From positions 3,548-15,846 of the forward strand of contig NHCX01000075.1 in assembly GCA_002168015.1 (NCBI GenBank): a DNA stretch of 12,299 nucleotides. Reading direction: 5' to 3'. The DNA is from Verrucomicrobia bacterium TMED44. Lineage in GTDB: Bacteria > Verrucomicrobiota > Verrucomicrobiia > Opitutales > Seribacteraceae. The position numbers and the translations under genes are program-made. This document shows, one piece after another, positions 918 through 6,652 of the stretch. A model generated the notes under the pieces. It saw nothing but the letters and a program-made list of their open reading frames with translations. It was not told the DNA's origin and did not search any database. Position 1 is the first letter of the stretch, and each line of letters opens with the position of its first letter.

Positions 918-3368
918 ATGGTAGAGATATTTAAGAATATAAAAGAGTACGCTGATGAGTTAGACCATGAAGCTGAGATGATTAAGCTGGGTAAACAGCG
1001 AGTCAATAAGCGTCGGGTCTCTCATATCCAGCGTGAAGAGGAGTCAGTGACCAGCTATGGTAAAGTCATGGTGGCTAATACCATACGACCACTGGCACAA
1101 GCCATACAGACCTATCTTGAATCTAATGCTGAAGCTAAGGGTCAGCCTGAGAAAGCTTTTATTAAGCTAAGAGAGATAGAGCCTGAGGTGTCAGCCATGA
1201 TATGTGCTAAGCATGTCATCAATACTATCACTCAGCATAAGCCATTGACGGCTACGAGTATTGCATTGGGTGGTAAGATTGAGACTGAGACATCTCTTCG
1301 TAACTTCAAGAACCTGAACCCTGAATTGTTTGACGCAGTTAAGAATGACTTGGACAAGCGTTCATGGAACTACGCATACAAGAGACGTAAGCTAAAGGAA
1401 TCAGCTAAGAGGGACGACGTGGCTATGTGGGAAGAGTGGACTACGGAAGAGAAGCTACACACAGGCATGAGACTTATCGAGTTTATGCAGTCAGCTACAG
1501 GTATGATTGAGTTTGGACTTGAGGTTATCAATCGTAAGCGTACTAAGATAATCAAGCAGACATCTAAGACTAGAGAATGGATAAAGAATAGAAATAACTT
1601 TAATGAGCTATTGAATCCTGAGTACCTACCAACTGTCATGCCACCTAAGAACTGGGAGACAGTGACAGGTGGTGGATACTGGACAAAGGAGTTACCTGAA
1701 CTAGACTTAGTCAAACAAAAGAATAAGTTATTCAAGCGTGAGCTAGAGAACTTTGATATGCCTGAAGTATACAACGCAGTTAACCGCATGCAGTCGACTG
1801 GCTTCAGGGTTAACACGTTTGTACTAGATGTGATGAAGCACGCTTGGGACAATGGTATTGCTATGGGTGGTATGCCACCAATTAAGAACATGGAGATACC
1901 TAACAAGCCACATGACATTGATACCAATGAGGTAGCACGTAAGGAGTGGAAGAAACAAGCGGTCATCTGTCACACAGAGAATAGCCGTATGTTTTCTAAG
2001 AGATTACTGTACGCTAAGATACTGTGGGAAGCTAATAAGTTTAAAGATTATGAGAACATATACTTTCCCTTACAGTTAGACTTCAGAGGGAGAGCCTATT
2101 GTGTCCCAGCATTTCTAAACTATCAGGGAATCAATGGTGCTAAGGCACTGTTAGATTTCTCACATGGTAAAGAGATAACTGAAGACAACAGCGGGGGCTT
2201 TTGGTTAGCCGTACACGGTGCTAACGTGTGGGGGAACGATAAGATTACTCTCGAACAGAGAGCAGACTGGTCTATGGACAAGGACAACATGCAAATGTTT
2301 CGTCGTATTGTTGAAGACCCTATCGTCAATCGAGAATGGGAAGAAGCTGACTCACCTTTTCAATTCCTCGCTTGGTGTAAAGAGTGGGTTGAGTTTCAAG
2401 ATACAGGCTACGGCTATGTATCACACTTGCCTGTCTCGATAGACGGTAGCTGTAATGGGTTACAGTTATACTCGCTAATGTTACGTGATGAGATAGCTGG
2501 TAAGCTGGTCAATGTTGTCCCTAGTGAAACACCACAGGACATCTACCAGCTTGTCGCTGACTCAGTGATAGAGAAACTGAAACAAGATAAAGCTGAGGGC
2601 AAGCCTTATGCACACGCATGGTTAGAGTATGGAATCAAACGCAGTACCACTAAGCGTAGCATTATGACTATATGCTATGGGTCTACGAGATACTCATGCA
2701 CTGACTTTGTAGTAGAAGACTTGACCAAGCGTAAAGATAAGGGGGAAGACCACCCGTTCAATACTGATGTATTCAAGCCAGCTATTTATTTAGCTGGAGT
2801 GATATGGGATAGCATTGGAGACAATCTAACATCAGCTCGTATGGGCATGGACTACCTACAAAAGATAGCTAAGGTTGTATCCAAAGAGCAATTACCTATA
2901 CATTGGACAACGCCTGTCGGCTTTCCTGTCTATCAATCTTACCCTGAAATGAAGAGCAAGAGAGTCAAGACCATGTTACTCGGAGAGGTTATTAAGCCTC
3001 GAGTAAACTATGAGACTGACAAGACAGACAAACTACGTATGAGTAATGGTGTTGCACCTAACTTTGTACACTCACTCGACTCATCAGCTATGATGAGGAC
3101 TGTTAATATTGCATATGAAAATGGTATAAGAAACTTTTGTAATGTGCATGACAGCTTCGGAACTACAGCTGCTGATGTAGAGATGTTGAGTGGTGCATTG
3201 AAGGAAGCATTTATTCAAACGTTTACAGAGACGGATGTACTTAAAGAGTTTAAGGAAGATGTCAAAACACAACTACCAGTAGAACTACATAAAGAGTTAC
3301 CTGAAGAATTAGATAAGGGTAACTTGGATATTGAGAAGCTGAGAGAGTGTGACTTCTTCTTTGCATAA
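918..3368 (+). CDS. Single-subunit (T7-type) DNA-directed RNA polymerase
   Basis: This is the phage RNA polymerase (816 aa; T7 gene 1 product is 883), which transcribes phage genes from phage promoters without host sigma factors. Visible landmarks, with T7 equivalents: motif A region QLDFRGRAY at 386-394; catalytic D509 in SIDGSCNG (T7 D537); motif B R575, K579 and Y587 in RSTTKRSIMTICYGS (T7 R627, K631, Y639); catalytic H744-D745 in VHDSFGT (T7 H811-D812); and a C-terminal end in DFFFA matching the T7 foot (DFAFA). The promoter specificity loop spans about 669-695. It keeps T7 R746 as R682 but has K684 where T7 has N748, I692 near R756 and K693 near Q758, so a promoter unlike T7's is expected. 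Start ATG 918 has AAGGAG 6 bases upstream. A candidate promoter lies immediately before it, so the gene may be self-transcribed as well as read from upstream early promoters. Confidence 0.98.
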   Translation: MVEIFKNIKEYADELDHEAEMIKLGKQRVNKRRVSHIQREEESVTSYGKVMVANTIRPLAQAIQTYLESNAEAKGQPEKAFIKLREIEPEVSAMICAKHVINTITQHKPLTATSIALGGKIETETSLRNFKNLNPELFDAVKNDLDKRSWNYAYKRRKLKESAKRDDVAMWEEWTTEEKLHTGMRLIEFMQSATGMIEFGLEVINRKRTKIIKQTSKTREWIKNRNNFNELLNPEYLPTVMPPKNWETVTGGGYWTKELPELDLVKQKNKLFKRELENFDMPEVYNAVNRMQSTGFRVNTFVLDVMKHAWDNGIAMGGMPPIKNMEIPNKPHDIDTNEVARKEWKKQAVICHTENSRMFSKRLLYAKILWEANKFKDYENIYFPLQLDFRGRAYCVPAFLNYQGINGAKALLDFSHGKEITEDNSGGFWLAVHGANVWGNDKITLEQRADWSMDKDNMQMFRRIVEDPIVNREWEEADSPFQFLAWCKEWVEFQDTGYGYVSHLPVSIDGSCNGLQLYSLMLRDEIAGKLVNVVPSETPQDIYQLVADSVIEKLKQDKAEGKPYAHAWLEYGIKRSTTKRSIMTICYGSTRYSCTDFVVEDLTKRKDKGEDHPFNTDVFKPAIYLAGVIWDSIGDNLTSARMGMDYLQKIAKVVSKEQLPIHWTTPVGFPVYQSYPEMKSKRVKTMLLGEVIKPRVNYETDKTDKLRMSNGVAPNFVHSLDSSAMMRTVNIAYENGIRNFCNVHDSFGTTAADVEMLSGALKEAFIQTFTETDVLKEFKEDVKTQLPVELHKELPEELDKGNLDIEKLRECDFFFA

Positions 3369-3409: not shown

Positions 3410-4036
3410 ATGGCACAACAACAAAATGAAAAAGTAGTAACACCTATTGGCGTCAGTCAATATGCGTGGTTAACACAGCCTGATACTCGTTTTGATGAGA
3501 ATGGACATTATAAAACTAATCTCATCTTAAAAACTGAGGACGCTGGAGAGTTAATGCAACGCATTGATAAAGCTTTGGAAACTTCTAAGGAAATAGCTCA
3601 AGAAAAAGCTAAGGGCAAGAAGATTAAACAAGCTGACGCACCCTACTTTGAAGAAGTAGATGAAGCTGGTAATCCAACTGGCAACACTATCTTTAAATTC
3701 AAATGCAAAGCACAGATAGTATCTAAGGACGGCACAATTATACCTAACAAGGTTGCATTGTTTGACGCTAAGGGTACGCCAATGCCTAAAGATGTGAACG
3801 TATGGTCAGGCAGTGAGATGAAAGTCTCAGCTGAATTGATACCGTACTACACAGCTATGGTTGGTGCTGGTGTTTCTATGAGATTGAGAGCAGTACAAAT
3901 AATCAAACTAGTAGAAGGCGGTGGCGGTAATGCTAAAGGCTTTGGGTTTGATGAGACAGATGGCTACGAACATCAGGAGACACAAGTTAAAGATGACATG
4001 GAGAGCACGACTGAAACGGAAACCTCTGACTTCTAA
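3410..4036 (+). CDS. Single-stranded DNA-binding protein (T7 gp2.5-like)
   Basis: This 208-residue protein binds single-stranded DNA at the replication fork and is expected to stimulate annealing and recombination (T7 gp2.5 has 232 residues). The evidence is its position between the RNA polymerase and endonuclease I genes, the overall pattern of a beta-rich OB-fold body of about 165 residues, a glycine-rich linker (GGGGNAKGFGF near residue 170), and a strongly acidic C-terminal tail ending in SDF. In T7 gp2.5 the acidic tail and terminal phenylalanine contact the DNA polymerase and helicase, and the same end is kept here. Start ATG 3410 has AGGAG 6 bases upstream. The last 44 bases overlap the endonuclease gene in another frame, so the acidic tail codons also encode the basic N-terminus of the nuclease. 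Confidence 0.9.
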   Translation: MAQQQNEKVVTPIGVSQYAWLTQPDTRFDENGHYKTNLILKTEDAGELMQRIDKALETSKEIAQEKAKGKKIKQADAPYFEEVDEAGNPTGNTIFKFKCKAQIVSKDGTIIPNKVALFDAKGTPMPKDVNVWSGSEMKVSAELIPYYTAMVGAGVSMRLRAVQIIKLVEGGGGNAKGFGFDETDGYEHQETQVKDDMESTTETETSDF

Positions 4037-4442
4037 AAAAGTCGGAATTGTTTACGGCTTCAGGTCAGGACTCGAAGAACGTATTGCTGGGGAACTTAGA
4101 AGTGAGAGTGTTAGTTATGAGTTTGAAGAAACTAAATTAAAATATACTAAACCTGAGAAGCTACATACTTACACACCTGACTTCTATCTTCCTGAGCAAG
4201 ACATATTCATTGAGACTAAGGGATTGTTTACGACAGCAGATAGACAAAAAATGAAACTAATTAAAGAACAATATCCTAAACTGGATATCAGATTCTTATT
4301 CAGCAATGCTAAAGCCAAGATAAATAAACGGAGTAAGACCACGTATGGTATGTGGTGTGAAAAGTATGGCTTCAAGTATGCTACTAAACATATTCCAAAG
4401 GAATGGCTATGCGAAATCAAAGGAAAGAAACCAAATACATAG
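3993..4442 (+). CDS. Endonuclease I, Holliday junction-resolving (T7 gp3-like)
   Basis: This nuclease cuts branched DNA, resolves phage DNA junctions and in T7 helps break down host DNA for nucleotide reuse. With the start at 3993 it is 149 residues, exactly the T7 gp3 length. The T7 active-site residues are all present: E28 in FRSGLEE (T7 E20), D63 in TYTPDFYLP (T7 D55), and E74 and K76 in FIETKG (T7 E65, K67). The C-terminal part (SYG/TYG-type turn, CEKYGFKYA, IPKEW) also matches T7 closely. The reading frame stays open upstream to an ATG at 3921, but that would add residues unlike the family and overlap the ssDNA-binding protein gene even more. A weak AGGAG lies about 14 bases before 3993, so translational coupling is likely. 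It overlaps the next gene. Confidence 0.93.
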   Translation: MTWRARLKRKPLTSKKVGIVYGFRSGLEERIAGELRSESVSYEFEETKLKYTKPEKLHTYTPDFYLPEQDIFIETKGLFTTADRQKMKLIKEQYPKLDIRFLFSNAKAKINKRSKTTYGMWCEKYGFKYATKHIPKEWLCEIKGKKPNT

Positions 4443-4852
4443 TAGTCTGTTGTTCTCACACTGCACCTAATACAGACTGGGGCAGTAGAGAGATGGACAT
4501 AGAGGGACGCAAGGAAGGGTTACTCGAAGGTGGGTTTCATAAAGTAATAAAGAGAGATGGCACAGTAGAAGACGGTAGAGATATTGATTCAGCTGGTGGC
4601 TTCTTACATTACAATATGAACAGAGCCAAATACCAACCAACCAATAAAAATTCTATTGGTATTGTATTGATAGGTGGTGGTAAAGATGATGGTACATCTG
4701 ATTGCAATTATACTCTCAAACAATTTAAAGCATTGAAGTGGGCAGTAGATGATTTGAAGAAACAGTATCCTGATGTCATAGAAATAATGGGACACAGGGA
4801 CATCTTCCATACATCTGAGCCTAACTTTAATGTACAAGAGTTACTAAAATAA
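4409..4852 (+). CDS. Amidase-fold protein related to T7 lysozyme (gp3.5), probably inactive as an amidase
   Basis: T7 lysozyme is a zinc N-acetylmuramoyl-L-alanine amidase that also binds and inhibits T7 RNA polymerase. This protein (147 aa from ATG 4409; T7 has 151) shares the fold signature: FHKVIKRDGTVEDGRD (43-58), NSIGIVLIGG (81-90), YTLKQFKAL (101-109) and MGHRDI (127-132). Key residues differ: T7 zinc ligand H17 aligns with C14 in VVCCSHT, catalytic Y46 with F43, catalytic K128 with T135, and zinc ligand C130 with E137; only H122 (H129) is kept. H17 of this protein lies three residues beyond C14 and might substitute as a ligand. I infer that amidase activity is lost or altered and that RNA polymerase regulation may be the retained role. 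Start 4409 is preferred over 4403 because AAAGGA (4397-4402) then sits 6 bases away. It overlaps the endonuclease gene by 34 bases. Confidence 0.85.
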   Translation: MRNQRKETKYIVVCCSHTAPNTDWGSREMDIEGRKEGLLEGGFHKVIKRDGTVEDGRDIDSAGGFLHYNMNRAKYQPTNKNSIGIVLIGGGKDDGTSDCNYTLKQFKALKWAVDDLKKQYPDVIEIMGHRDIFHTSEPNFNVQELLK

Positions 4853-4868
4853 AATGGAGAAAAAATTT

Positions 4869-5042
4869 ATGGACGCAAATGAAAAAAGAAAATCAAAATA
4901 CACACAAGTAGTAGTAACACATGAAGTAAAGGGTATGCTAGAAGCTATCACTAAAGAAACATTTAGAAGTGGGTCAGGTGAGGTAGCGTTCTTAGTCCAC
5001 CAAGCTTACAAGAAACTACAAGATAGAAAGCCGTACGATTAA
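4869..5042 (+). CDS. Small ribbon-helix-helix-like protein (57 aa)
   Basis: I do not recognise a specific family. The sequence has the pattern of a ribbon-helix-helix DNA-binding domain: a basic N-terminal arm (EKRKSKY, 5-11), a short strand TQVVVT (12-17), helix HEVKGMLEAITKET (18-31), a turn containing SGSG (34-37), and a second helix EVAFLVHQAYKKL (38-50). Arc/MetJ-type proteins of this kind are dimeric repressors, so a transcriptional or DNA-packaging role is conceivable but inferred. Start 4869 is chosen because GGAG (4856-4859) lies 9 bases upstream; ATG 4854 would add five residues but lacks a ribosome binding site. The TAA stop overlaps the third promoter-like motif, just before the primase-helicase gene. 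Confidence 0.65.
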   Translation: MDANEKRKSKYTQVVVTHEVKGMLEAITKETFRSGSGEVAFLVHQAYKKLQDRKPYD

Positions 5043-5058
5043 GTACCCCTATAAGAAT
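5041..5058 (+). promoter_or_regulatory. Candidate phage RNA polymerase promoter, copy 3, running into the primase start codon
   Basis: AAGTACCCCTATAAGAAT differs from copies 1 and 2 at one core base (C for A before TATA) and at the end. It again starts in a TAA stop codon (5040-5042). By T7 alignment the start site would be A5054, only 3 bases before the primase ATG at 5057. The message would then be nearly leaderless for the full-length protein, with the internal start at 5189 well provided for. The assignment is inferred from the repeat. Confidence 0.55.
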
Positions 5059-6652
5059 GGAACAAAATGAAAGCACATTTCTACACCATGCACCATGTTC
5101 GTCGTGTGGGTCTAAGGATAACTTAGCCGTATACAGTGATGGACACAGTTATTGTTTTGGATGTGGATATCATACAAATGGAGAGTCAATGACAACACCT
5201 ACCACCACTAAAGACACTGCTGACTTTGTCAGTGGTACTGTCACCGCTCTTGCCAAACGCAAACTAGATGTCGATACGTTACAGAAGTTTGATTATCAAA
5301 TAGGCACAGCTCATAAGAGACCAGTGCAGATAGCCAACTACTATAACAAAGACCATGAACTAGTAGCTCAGAAGTTACGCTACCCTGATAAAAGTTTCCA
5401 GTGGATAGGCGAAGCTAAAGACGCTCAGTTATTTGGTCAACACCTATGGCGTGATAAGGGAAGAATGGTTATCGTGACTGAAGGTGAGATTGACGCTCTC
5501 TCTGTCTCGAAAGTAAATCAAAATAAATATCCTGTAGTATCAGTAAAGACTGGAGCTAAGGGGGCTAAGCGTGACTTACTTAAAGAGTTAGAATGGCTTG
5601 AGGGTTTCGACTCTGTCGTTCTAATGTTTGATAATGATACAGCTGGTAAAGAGGCTGCCACTGAATGTGCAAAAATCTTCTCACCAAACAAGGCAAAGAT
5701 ATGTTCATTGCCTTTGAAGGACGCAAACGAAATGCTATGTGCTGGTAAATCACAACAGCTTATCGACTGCGTTTGGTCAGCTAAAGCTTACCAGCCTGAT
5801 GGCATTGTAGCTGGTGCTGACCTTTGGGAAGATATTAGAAAAGAAGATAGCTATGTTACAGTCCAATATCCATTTGAATGTCTTAACACTAAGACACATG
5901 GACTACGCAAGGGAGAACTAGTTACTGTCACTGCTGGTAGTGGTGTAGGTAAGTCTAGTTTCTGTAGACATGTAGCCTTACATTTACTGAAAAATAATTT
6001 CAGCGTTGGGTACATAGCACTAGAGGAATCTATCAAGCGTAGTGCATTGGGTATCATGGGAATAGAAATGGGTAAGCCATTACACTTAGACCGCAAAGGT
6101 GTCGACGATAAGAAACTTAAAGAAGTATTCGACAGCACTGTGGGTGGTGGTAAGTTTTATTTATATAATCACTTTGGCTCAACAGCCAGTGACAATTTAA
6201 TATCTAAGATAAGATACTTAGCTAAAGGGTGCGGCGTTGACTTCGTAATACTTGACCACTTACACATGGCTCTATCAGCCGTTGGTGATGAGACTACAAG
6301 TGACGAACGTAAACTTATAGATTATACAGTATCAAAGCTTAGGACTCTAGTAGAAGAGACAGGCATTGGATTAATACTGGTGTCCCACCTTAAGAGACCT
6401 GAAGGGAACAAAGGATATGAGGATGGGGTTGCAGTATCTATGAATAGTTTACGTGGAAGTGCGTCAATCGGTCAGTTATCTGATATGATTATAAGTATGT
6501 CTAGAGACTTACAGTCAGACAAGAACTTGGCTCAGGTTAACGTGTTGAAGAATAGGTTTAGTGGAGAGACAGGCAAAGCTTGTACACTCTACTATGATTT
6601 AGAAACAGGATGTTTACGGGAGACAGATGGAGATGTACAGGACGACTTCTAA
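5057..6652 (+). CDS. DNA primase-helicase (T7 gp4-like)
   Basis: This bifunctional replication protein (531 aa; T7 gp4A 566) makes RNA primers and unwinds DNA as a hexamer. Domains in order: zinc-binding primase domain with C14, C17, C33 and C36; TOPRIM primase core with E142 in TEGEID and D192/D194 in FDNDTAG; RecA-like helicase with Walker A AGSGVGKS at 293-300, catalytic-glutamate region LEES at 322-325, Walker B ILD ending at D400, H444 in SHLKRP, the LRGSASIGQLSD motif at 465-476, and arginine finger R500 in KNRFSGETG. The acidic C-terminus ends in QDDF, like T7 gp4 (ends DTDF), where the tail docks on DNA polymerase. There is no ribosome binding site before ATG 5057 and a promoter-like motif abuts it. 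An internal start at M45 (5189) is well supported and would give a helicase lacking the zinc domain. Confidence 0.97.
   Translation: MEQNESTFLHHAPCSSCGSKDNLAVYSDGHSYCFGCGYHTNGESMTTPTTTKDTADFVSGTVTALAKRKLDVDTLQKFDYQIGTAHKRPVQIANYYNKDHELVAQKLRYPDKSFQWIGEAKDAQLFGQHLWRDKGRMVIVTEGEIDALSVSKVNQNKYPVVSVKTGAKGAKRDLLKELEWLEGFDSVVLMFDNDTAGKEAATECAKIFSPNKAKICSLPLKDANEMLCAGKSQQLIDCVWSAKAYQPDGIVAGADLWEDIRKEDSYVTVQYPFECLNTKTHGLRKGELVTVTAGSGVGKSSFCRHVALHLLKNNFSVGYIALEESIKRSALGIMGIEMGKPLHLDRKGVDDKKLKEVFDSTVGGGKFYLYNHFGSTASDNLISKIRYLAKGCGVDFVILDHLHMALSAVGDETTSDERKLIDYTVSKLRTLVEETGIGLILVSHLKRPEGNKGYEDGVAVSMNSLRGSASIGQLSDMIISMSRDLQSDKNLAQVNVLKNRFSGETGKACTLYYDLETGCLRETDGDVQDDF
5180..5191 (+). promoter_or_regulatory. 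Internal ribosome binding site and start for a short helicase form (gp4B-like)
   Basis: GGAG (5180-5183) is followed after 5 bases by an in-frame ATG at 5189 (M45), just past the last zinc-binding cysteine C36. Translation from here would give a 487-residue protein with TOPRIM and helicase domains but no zinc domain. T7 gene 4 does exactly this, making 56-kDa (4B) and 63-kDa (4A) forms from Met64 and Met1. The site is stronger than anything in front of the full-length start. Confidence 0.7.

Follow-up and report, generated by a model that had tools for sequence, protein, structure and literature searches.

A T7 lysozyme homologue with a replaced amidase site in pelagivirus-type phages, probably kept to regulate the phage RNA polymerase

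The T7 lysozyme gp3.5 is the standard example of a bifunctional phage protein, being both an endolysin and a brake on the phage RNA polymerase (RNAP). The locus described here raises the question of what maintains a gene of this family when most residues of its amidase site have been replaced. The window, i.e., the whole stretch of 12,299 nucleotides that was analysed, is a piece of a T7-like phage contig (C36 of assembly G000, 33,104 bases). Its gene order is that of cultured pelagiviruses, e.g., HTVC031P; besides the features given below, the ORF list and profile searches indicate genes for a 5'-3' exonuclease and a ribonucleotide reductase.

918..3368, + strand: T7-type single-subunit RNAP, presumed partner of gp3.5 (PF00940, E 9.9e-104)
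3410..4036, + strand: single-stranded DNA-binding protein of T7 gp2.5 type, gene order conserved (profile match)
3921..4442, + strand (open frame as listed): endonuclease I of T7 gp3 type, directly upstream of gp3.5 (profile matches); the true start probably lies later within this frame
4397..4402, + strand: AAAGGA, probable ribosome-binding site 6 nt ahead of ATG 4409 (read from the sequence only)
4409..4852, + strand: gp3.5, T7 lysozyme homologue with an eroded amidase site, own residues C14, F43, H129, T135 and E137 (ORF, Pfam, phrog, PDB, alignment, model)
4403/4409-4852, + strand: alternative gp3.5 ORFs of 149/147 aa
4421..4432, + strand: R5-x-x-T8 of the gp3.5 N-terminal tail, within the overlap with the endonuclease gene (motif tally)
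5057..6652, + strand: primase/helicase of T7 gp4 type, downstream of gp3.5 (profile match)

The first 34 nt of gp3.5 are shared with the end of the endonuclease gene, and ATG 4409, the start used in the sequence-only reading of this DNA, is favoured because the AAAGGA ends 6 nt ahead of it. The contig breaks off within an open frame at the tail fibre position, before the endolysin position, which is why the phage's own endolysin is not seen. Searches relate the window protein to T7 lysozyme (PDB 1lba, residues 3-143, E 1.3e-17), Pfam Amidase_2 (41.7 bits, cut-off 26) and the amidase family phrog_822 (E 1.4e-36). It shares with T7 lysozyme (1lba, 1aro) 34-35% identity, an N-terminal R-x-x-T and a T7-type RNAP gene upstream, as well as the gene order ssb, endonuclease I, gp3.5, primase, to which T7 adds genes 2.8 and 3.8 in between. 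Unlike T7 lysozyme, it has a tail of 13 residues, versus 17, ahead of the zinc-His position, an insert near T7 residue 70, a shorter C-terminus and replacements of two zinc ligands and both catalytic residues. The same assembly contains a second T7-like phage (contig C65, locus L044, 555-1004), the gp3.5 of which has all five amidase residues.

Amidase site, constraint and predicted fold

The site is written below as a five-letter code for the residues at T7 H17, Y46, H122, K128 and C130, the intact form being HYHKC. Aligned to T7, the window protein reads CFHTE, so that four of the five residues are replaced and only the equivalent of H122 is left; this alignment confirms the residue assignments of the sequence-only reading (H17 = C14, Y46 = F43, K128 = T135, C130 = E137, H129 kept). 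The zinc ligands required for amidase activity (H17, H122 and C130) are C, H and E here, and the likewise required Tyr46 is Phe; K128 is Thr, a change tolerated on its own in the endolysin Ts2631.

All 12 distinct full-length sequences of the window clade are CFHTE. The clade search gave 27 IMG/VR loci, 26 of them spanning gp3.5 at 80-100% identity, with one later locus added; the 12 sequences come from the 26 loci plus the window, the latter being counted twice in the tally of 28, and exclude L019 (stop after 100 residues) and L027 (a 27-residue end piece). All five residues are present in six further phage homologues with 32-39% identity to the window protein, which rules out chance loss through general divergence. 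The dN/dS of the clade gene is 0.139 (63 pairs); since all 12 sequences share CFHTE at this value, the site changes are beyond chance or sequencing error and the gene is constrained. Three other groups with a changed site gave 0.172, 0.167 and 0.143, and an intact group 0.224. A pseudogene is ruled out for the clade by dN/dS, with one copy interrupted: in L019 (908-1210) the match continues beyond the stop.

AlphaFold modelling predicted the structure of the window gp3.5 with confidence (pLDDT 88.7, pTM 0.87), and the best structural match in the PDB is T7 lysozyme 1lba (TM 0.86, rmsd 2.0), with peptidoglycan recognition proteins (PGRPs) among the closest folds. The sequence-only reading had held that the fold is kept under constraint and had proposed structure prediction as a check; both parts of that claim are borne out by the model and by the dN/dS.

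Published mutants bear on whether the amidase is still active. According to passages of PMC8124813, Y46F abolishes the activity of T7 amidase, as does Y78F that of PGRP-LB; in PGRP-LB, C160S leads to the loss of zinc, and single ligand mutants have reduced or abolished activity depending on the substrate. Excerpts of PMC4573324 describe a considerable drop in activity of T7 lysozyme K128T and 3-17% residual activity of Ts2631 with H30N, Y58F, H131N or C139S (10% for the Tyr-to-Phe change); since the active Ts2631 naturally has Thr at the K128 position, K128T alone is no proof of inactivity. In the window protein the Tyr, two ligands and the Lys are changed together, and therefore amidase activity appears very unlikely. 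The loss of the amidase in the window clade is well supported at the level of the residues, from which enzymatic inactivity would follow.

Other combinations of replacements occur in related phages. Among 211 distinct full-length viral and phage homologues, which are the matches listed for a few queries, so that the proportions are not natural frequencies, 113 are HYHKC (T7 included) and 98 are not. The latter comprise HFCKC (31), HFHSS (22), HFHSC (13), CFHTE (12), HFHAC, HFHSA and HFCNC (three each), HYHTC (two) and nine singletons. Tyr46 is kept in 6 of these 98, Lys128 in 33, Cys130 in 57, His122 in 58 and His17 in 85; all three zinc ligands remain in 20 (HHC), the other ligand sets including HCC (37), HHS (23), HHA (3), HYS (1) and HCS (1). 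The forms HYHTC, HYHAC and HYHRC, which keep the Tyr and all ligands (4/98), may still be active, judging by their residues. Homologues in bacterial genomes (80 kept of 578 found) are HYHKC in 79 cases and HYHRC in one, Y46 not being independent there, since the search pattern required GYH.

In the RNAP tree, a quick tree with long branches flagged, the pelagivirus-type clade (support 100), the cultured members of which infect SAR11, the most abundant marine bacteria, comprises 41 rows that are without exception non-HYHKC, and the K128-only form HYHTC branches separately at an unresolved fork. The minimum numbers of state changes on this tree (K128 11, Y46 5, C130 5, H122 3, H17 2) fit a piecemeal decay after the enzyme was no longer needed.

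A second endolysin near the terminase gene

Late genes were examined for nine cultured relatives in which gp3.5 is changed, and each of the nine carries a second lysozyme gene. A GH24 gene directly follows the terminase gene in HTVC019P, HTVC105P, HTVC142P, HTVC168P, Eistla and Jormungand; in HTVC109P, the terminase gene is followed by a glucosaminidase gene and then by the GH24 gene, and in HTVC200P the GH24 gene lies several genes ahead of the terminase. In HTVC031P, a gene for a pesticin-type muramidase follows the terminase gene; its product gp53 (L032:27754-28293), annotated as a putative peptidase, matches PF16754 (E 1.5e-30). The motif E-G/S ... T-x-G-x-G, the Glu of which we take to be catalytic as in T4 lysozyme, was found in 23/23 GH24 genes.

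The sequence-only reading had suggested looking for a separate endolysin among the late genes, and such a gene is present in both members of the window clade whose examined stretches reach the terminase, L013 (gp3.5 identity 93%; gene at 1644-2144) and L023 (82%; gene at 596-1099). It overlaps the terminase stop, encodes a transglycosylase-like protein of 166-167 aa with the motif IESSN-Y-I...GRYQ(M/L)G, and matches the endolysin family phrog_5867 (E 2.3e-15 and 1.7e-10) with no match in Pfam. The top 20 fold matches of its low-confidence model (pLDDT 65.9) are all lytic transglycosylases or the phi6 lysin, at E 0.43 or worse. Fourteen loci carry this gene, one of them an end piece and two belonging to the L013 and L023 contigs; a search with the pesticin-type protein in the window's own genome and six clade contigs gave no match.

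The cultured pelagiviruses (HTVC031P, HTVC019P, HTVC109P, Eistla and others) resemble the window phage in belonging to the same clade of the RNAP tree and in gene order, a changed site and a second endolysin. Their gp3.5 proteins, annotated as lysozyme, are 39-51% identical to that of the window and have other combinations (HFHSC, HFCKC, HFYVS, HYHAC and others), and their second endolysin is of GH24 or pesticin type, versus transglycosylase-like in the window clade. Transcriptomes are available for one culturable pelagivirus, HTVC022P (PMC12753301). HTVC025P and other intact IMG/VR phages contain a gp3.5 of the same family, in HTVC025P and many others at the same gene position. Unlike the window phage, they are HYHKC and showed no GH24, pesticin-type or transglycosylase-like gene where searched; in HTVC025P, no second endolysin is annotated and none was found by PF00959 or PF16754.

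A gene of one of the three families is present in 29/29 non-HYHKC loci versus 0/16 HYHKC loci. This count covers the loci whose terminase fragment is 190 aa or longer, searched with own profiles of all three families; near-copies are among its 45 rows (the tree, with T7, has 46 rows, 40 of them different), the 16 intact loci include several short fragments and two with less than 250 bases after the terminase, and HTVC168P, one of the four possibly active forms, is among the 29. Left out were L047 (part of the L023 contig) and L073 by hand, and L068, L080 and L145 by the length cut; L073, L068 and L080 have a changed site and a second endolysin, and L145 is intact and has none. GH24 or pesticin-type genes were found by PF00959 and PF16754 in 0 of 12 intact whole records; the intact phages were searched for the three families, with GH24 as the single family covered in another six named records. 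The PF00959 search of whole records under-counts, since it missed the GH24 genes of Eistla, G018, G021 and G023, which were recovered by hmmscan, an own profile or protein search. Among 28 changed-site records, G001, G017, G031 and G033 are uninformative on the endolysin, because no terminase was found in them.

The association of a changed site with another endolysin is complete, yet it rests on only one or two evolutionary events. Because the 28 rows from pelagiviruses group together in a single clade of the terminase tree (100/99), independent contrasts cannot test it: there is one contrast judged by the starred branches, or two, with HTVC200P, in the best tree. The Fisher test applied to the association takes no account of relatedness. 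The state of the endolysin (three types or none) changed at least eight times on this tree.

Some neighbouring genes were noted as well. Just ahead of the terminase genes of L047 are ORFs of 144 and 53 aa with hydrophobic stretches (1364-1798 and 1798-1959, - strand), which, together with L045 18851-19446, were picked out by eye as possible genes for a holin or spanin in this clade, no family match being decisive. In L073 (720-2013), the terminase gene is split into five overlapping open frames, by sequencing errors or real breaks.

Possible roles of the retained protein

In T7, the RNAP inhibition resides in the N-terminal tail of the lysozyme (PMC10138996), the RNAP interaction domain comprises residues 2-52, and zinc is required for the amidase and not for the inhibition (PMC5445346); the protein binds RNAP away from the active site and holds it in abortive initiation (PMC5445346, PMC10138996). 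In related Pseudomonas phages, according to excerpts of PMC10138996, some lysozymes inhibit the polymerase of another phage. The account that we consider probable for the window protein is that of a pseudo-amidase, its lysis function handed to another endolysin and the protein kept as an RNAP regulator. The first step would have been the arrival of a separate endolysin gene beside the terminase gene in a forerunner of the pelagivirus-type phages, with lysis passing to the new enzyme. The amidase site of gp3.5 and its zinc ligands would then have decayed along different paths in different sub-lineages, whereas fold, N-terminal tail and gene position after the RNAP, single-stranded DNA-binding protein and endonuclease genes were retained. 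By analogy with the zinc-independent action of T7 lysozyme, the pseudo-amidase most likely still binds the phage RNAP and damps transcription. The terminase-linked enzyme is presumably the working endolysin, and the order of events is our reconstruction; since relatives carry another wall-cutting enzyme, the old lysozyme probably survives only for RNAP regulation.

Two comparisons gave this account no additional support. The RNAP positions contacting lysozyme (14 alignable of 17 in T7 RNAP) are no more conserved than others, be it in the set with changed sites (P 0.94), the intact set (P 0.58) or the window clade (P 0.73), and this negative result has little power as a guide to binding, since the intact set fails too. 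The rates of evolution do not clearly show a slowing of the RNAP-binding half after the loss of catalysis: in HFCKC, HFHSS and HFHSC the N-terminal half evolves more slowly than the remainder, yet it does so in the intact set too, and the window clade is reversed (dN/dS 0.162 for residues 2-52 versus 0.130 for the rest), although synonymous change in this region may be reduced by the overlap with the endonuclease gene. The sequence-only reading had offered a dedicated transcription regulator as one possibility, and it is the best supported by the changed site, the kept fold, selection and N-terminal tail and the separate endolysin of relatives, the RNAP contact residues adding nothing to it.

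A different loss is seen in the HTVC200P group. Its gp3.5 ends about 112 residues past the conserved Arg and lacks the segment from H122 to C130 in 13/13 complete sequences, and H17 is Asp in 15/15 (the K in the signature DF-K- is an alignment effect of the gap). The retained part includes the region equivalent to the T7 RNAP interaction domain, residues 2-52, and GH24 is present in all three records searched (HTVC200P, G034 and G035). The start annotated for the truncated amidase of HTVC200P (L040, ~4001-4339) is an internal Met that several relatives lack, and the true start is probably upstream of it.

A further part in replication and DNA packaging, played jointly with RNAP, is attributed to T7 lysozyme. 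The window protein may have retained some other role, e.g., in replication or packaging through RNAP pausing or in a process unrelated to RNAP; the constraint on the gene is clear, while its target is inferred, which leaves room for this explanation. It appears unlikely, and the versions that act via RNAP would be variants of the regulatory account.

Also rather unlikely is a non-catalytic protein that binds peptidoglycan, aiding the new endolysin or sensing the wall. PGRPs are, as stated, among the closest folds of the model, and the non-catalytic ones (PGRP-SA and others) are a precedent from the same fold superfamily for the loss of zinc ligands and catalysis with the fold kept for a non-enzymatic role. 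In passages of PMC8124813, active-site mutants of PGRP-LB still bind peptidoglycan, and the Tyr is kept even in non-catalytic PGRPs. PGRPs are animal immune proteins that bind peptidoglycan and have no RNAP partner. Against this reading, the gene remains by the RNAP and replication genes and not among the late genes, and the HTVC200P group drops the C-terminal site segment and keeps the N-terminal part.

A protein that is still an amidase, with a metal site remodelled from C14, H129 and E137, seems quite improbable. These residues are invariant in 12/12 clade sequences; the parts of PMC4573324 and PMC8124813 cited above describe an active Ts2631 with Thr at the K128 position and single ligand mutants of PGRP-LB that are partly active on some substrates. 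However, the clade shows no variation at 98 of its 147 positions, which gives the invariance of three residues little weight, and Tyr46 is lost too, a change that abolishes the activity of T7 lysozyme and PGRP-LB and leaves 10% in Ts2631 (same sources). Other lineages have other ligand sets, as expected of decay and not of remodelling. The new metal site proposed in the sequence-only reading, with C14 or the protein's own H17 beside H129 and E137, consequently found no support; a site using H17 is rejected outright, this residue being Asn in 3/12 clade sequences. That the gene is functionless and decaying can hardly be credited: the repeated changes of catalytic residues on the RNAP tree and the interrupted copy in L019 would agree with it, but the gene is open in 25/26 spanning IMG/VR loci, each of the four changed groups tested gave a dN/dS within 0.14-0.17, the fold prediction is of high confidence and the 12 complete relatives of HTVC200P type share 78-87% identity with HTVC200P.

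The N-terminal motif and the two functions of T7 lysozyme

The N-terminal R-x-x-T is present in 98/98 distinct non-HYHKC sequences and in 109/110 other HYHKC sequences, the lone exception (L135) beginning at a contig end. The overlap with the endonuclease gene could help to conserve the tail in the window phage; the motif is nevertheless also found in T7, HTVC025P and Delftia phage IME-DE1, which have an overlap of 1-4 bases or none at all. The reverse situation occurs in nine intact loci where gp3.5 is just upstream of the terminase gene: the tail is short, and R-x-x-T is found in none of the three distinct sequences. These loci (the L131-L142 type, e.g., L136:3519-3914 with the terminase at 4339-5988) possibly represent an amidase-only version, judging by their residues; among those checked there is one long contig, G007, which also contains an RNAP gene.

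A tentative extension of the regulatory account, held with somewhat less than even confidence, is that the two jobs of T7 lysozyme have been split in opposite directions: the pelagiviruses and, separately, the HTVC200P group would have a regulator-only version with a recruited and repeatedly exchanged endolysin, and the L131-L142 type an amidase-only version, adjacent to the terminase and devoid of the tail motif. If so, these would be natural separation-of-function variants for either half of a protein that is a textbook case of bifunctionality.

A group of phages with cultured members that infect SAR11 appears to have discarded the enzyme half and kept the protein. No report of this loss of the amidase site was found among the matches listed in the open-licence PMC literature (titles and abstract starts), and public records still name the changed-site gene lysozyme. 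If the regulatory account is right, these phages lyse their hosts with other enzymes, the name is functionally wrong, and the proteins are natural non-lytic polymerase inhibitors with which the transcription control by gp3.5 can be studied without lysis as a confounding factor.

The picture is mixed among three phages without a detected RNAP: Vibrio phage 1.116.O and Bacteroides phage SJC14 have no R-x-x-T, and Microcystis phage Mel-JY03 has RRLT one residue nearer to the His. In bacterial genomes, the motif is commoner beside an RNAP gene and not exclusive to such loci: it was found in 10/14 homologues with an RNAP gene within the examined stretch around them versus 17/66 without (p 0.0035). 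A minor observation concerns contig G002 of a relative of the window phage (L047), where two adjacent fatty-acid desaturase genes (PF00487; 1956-2708 and 2699-3382, - strand) lie among the late genes.
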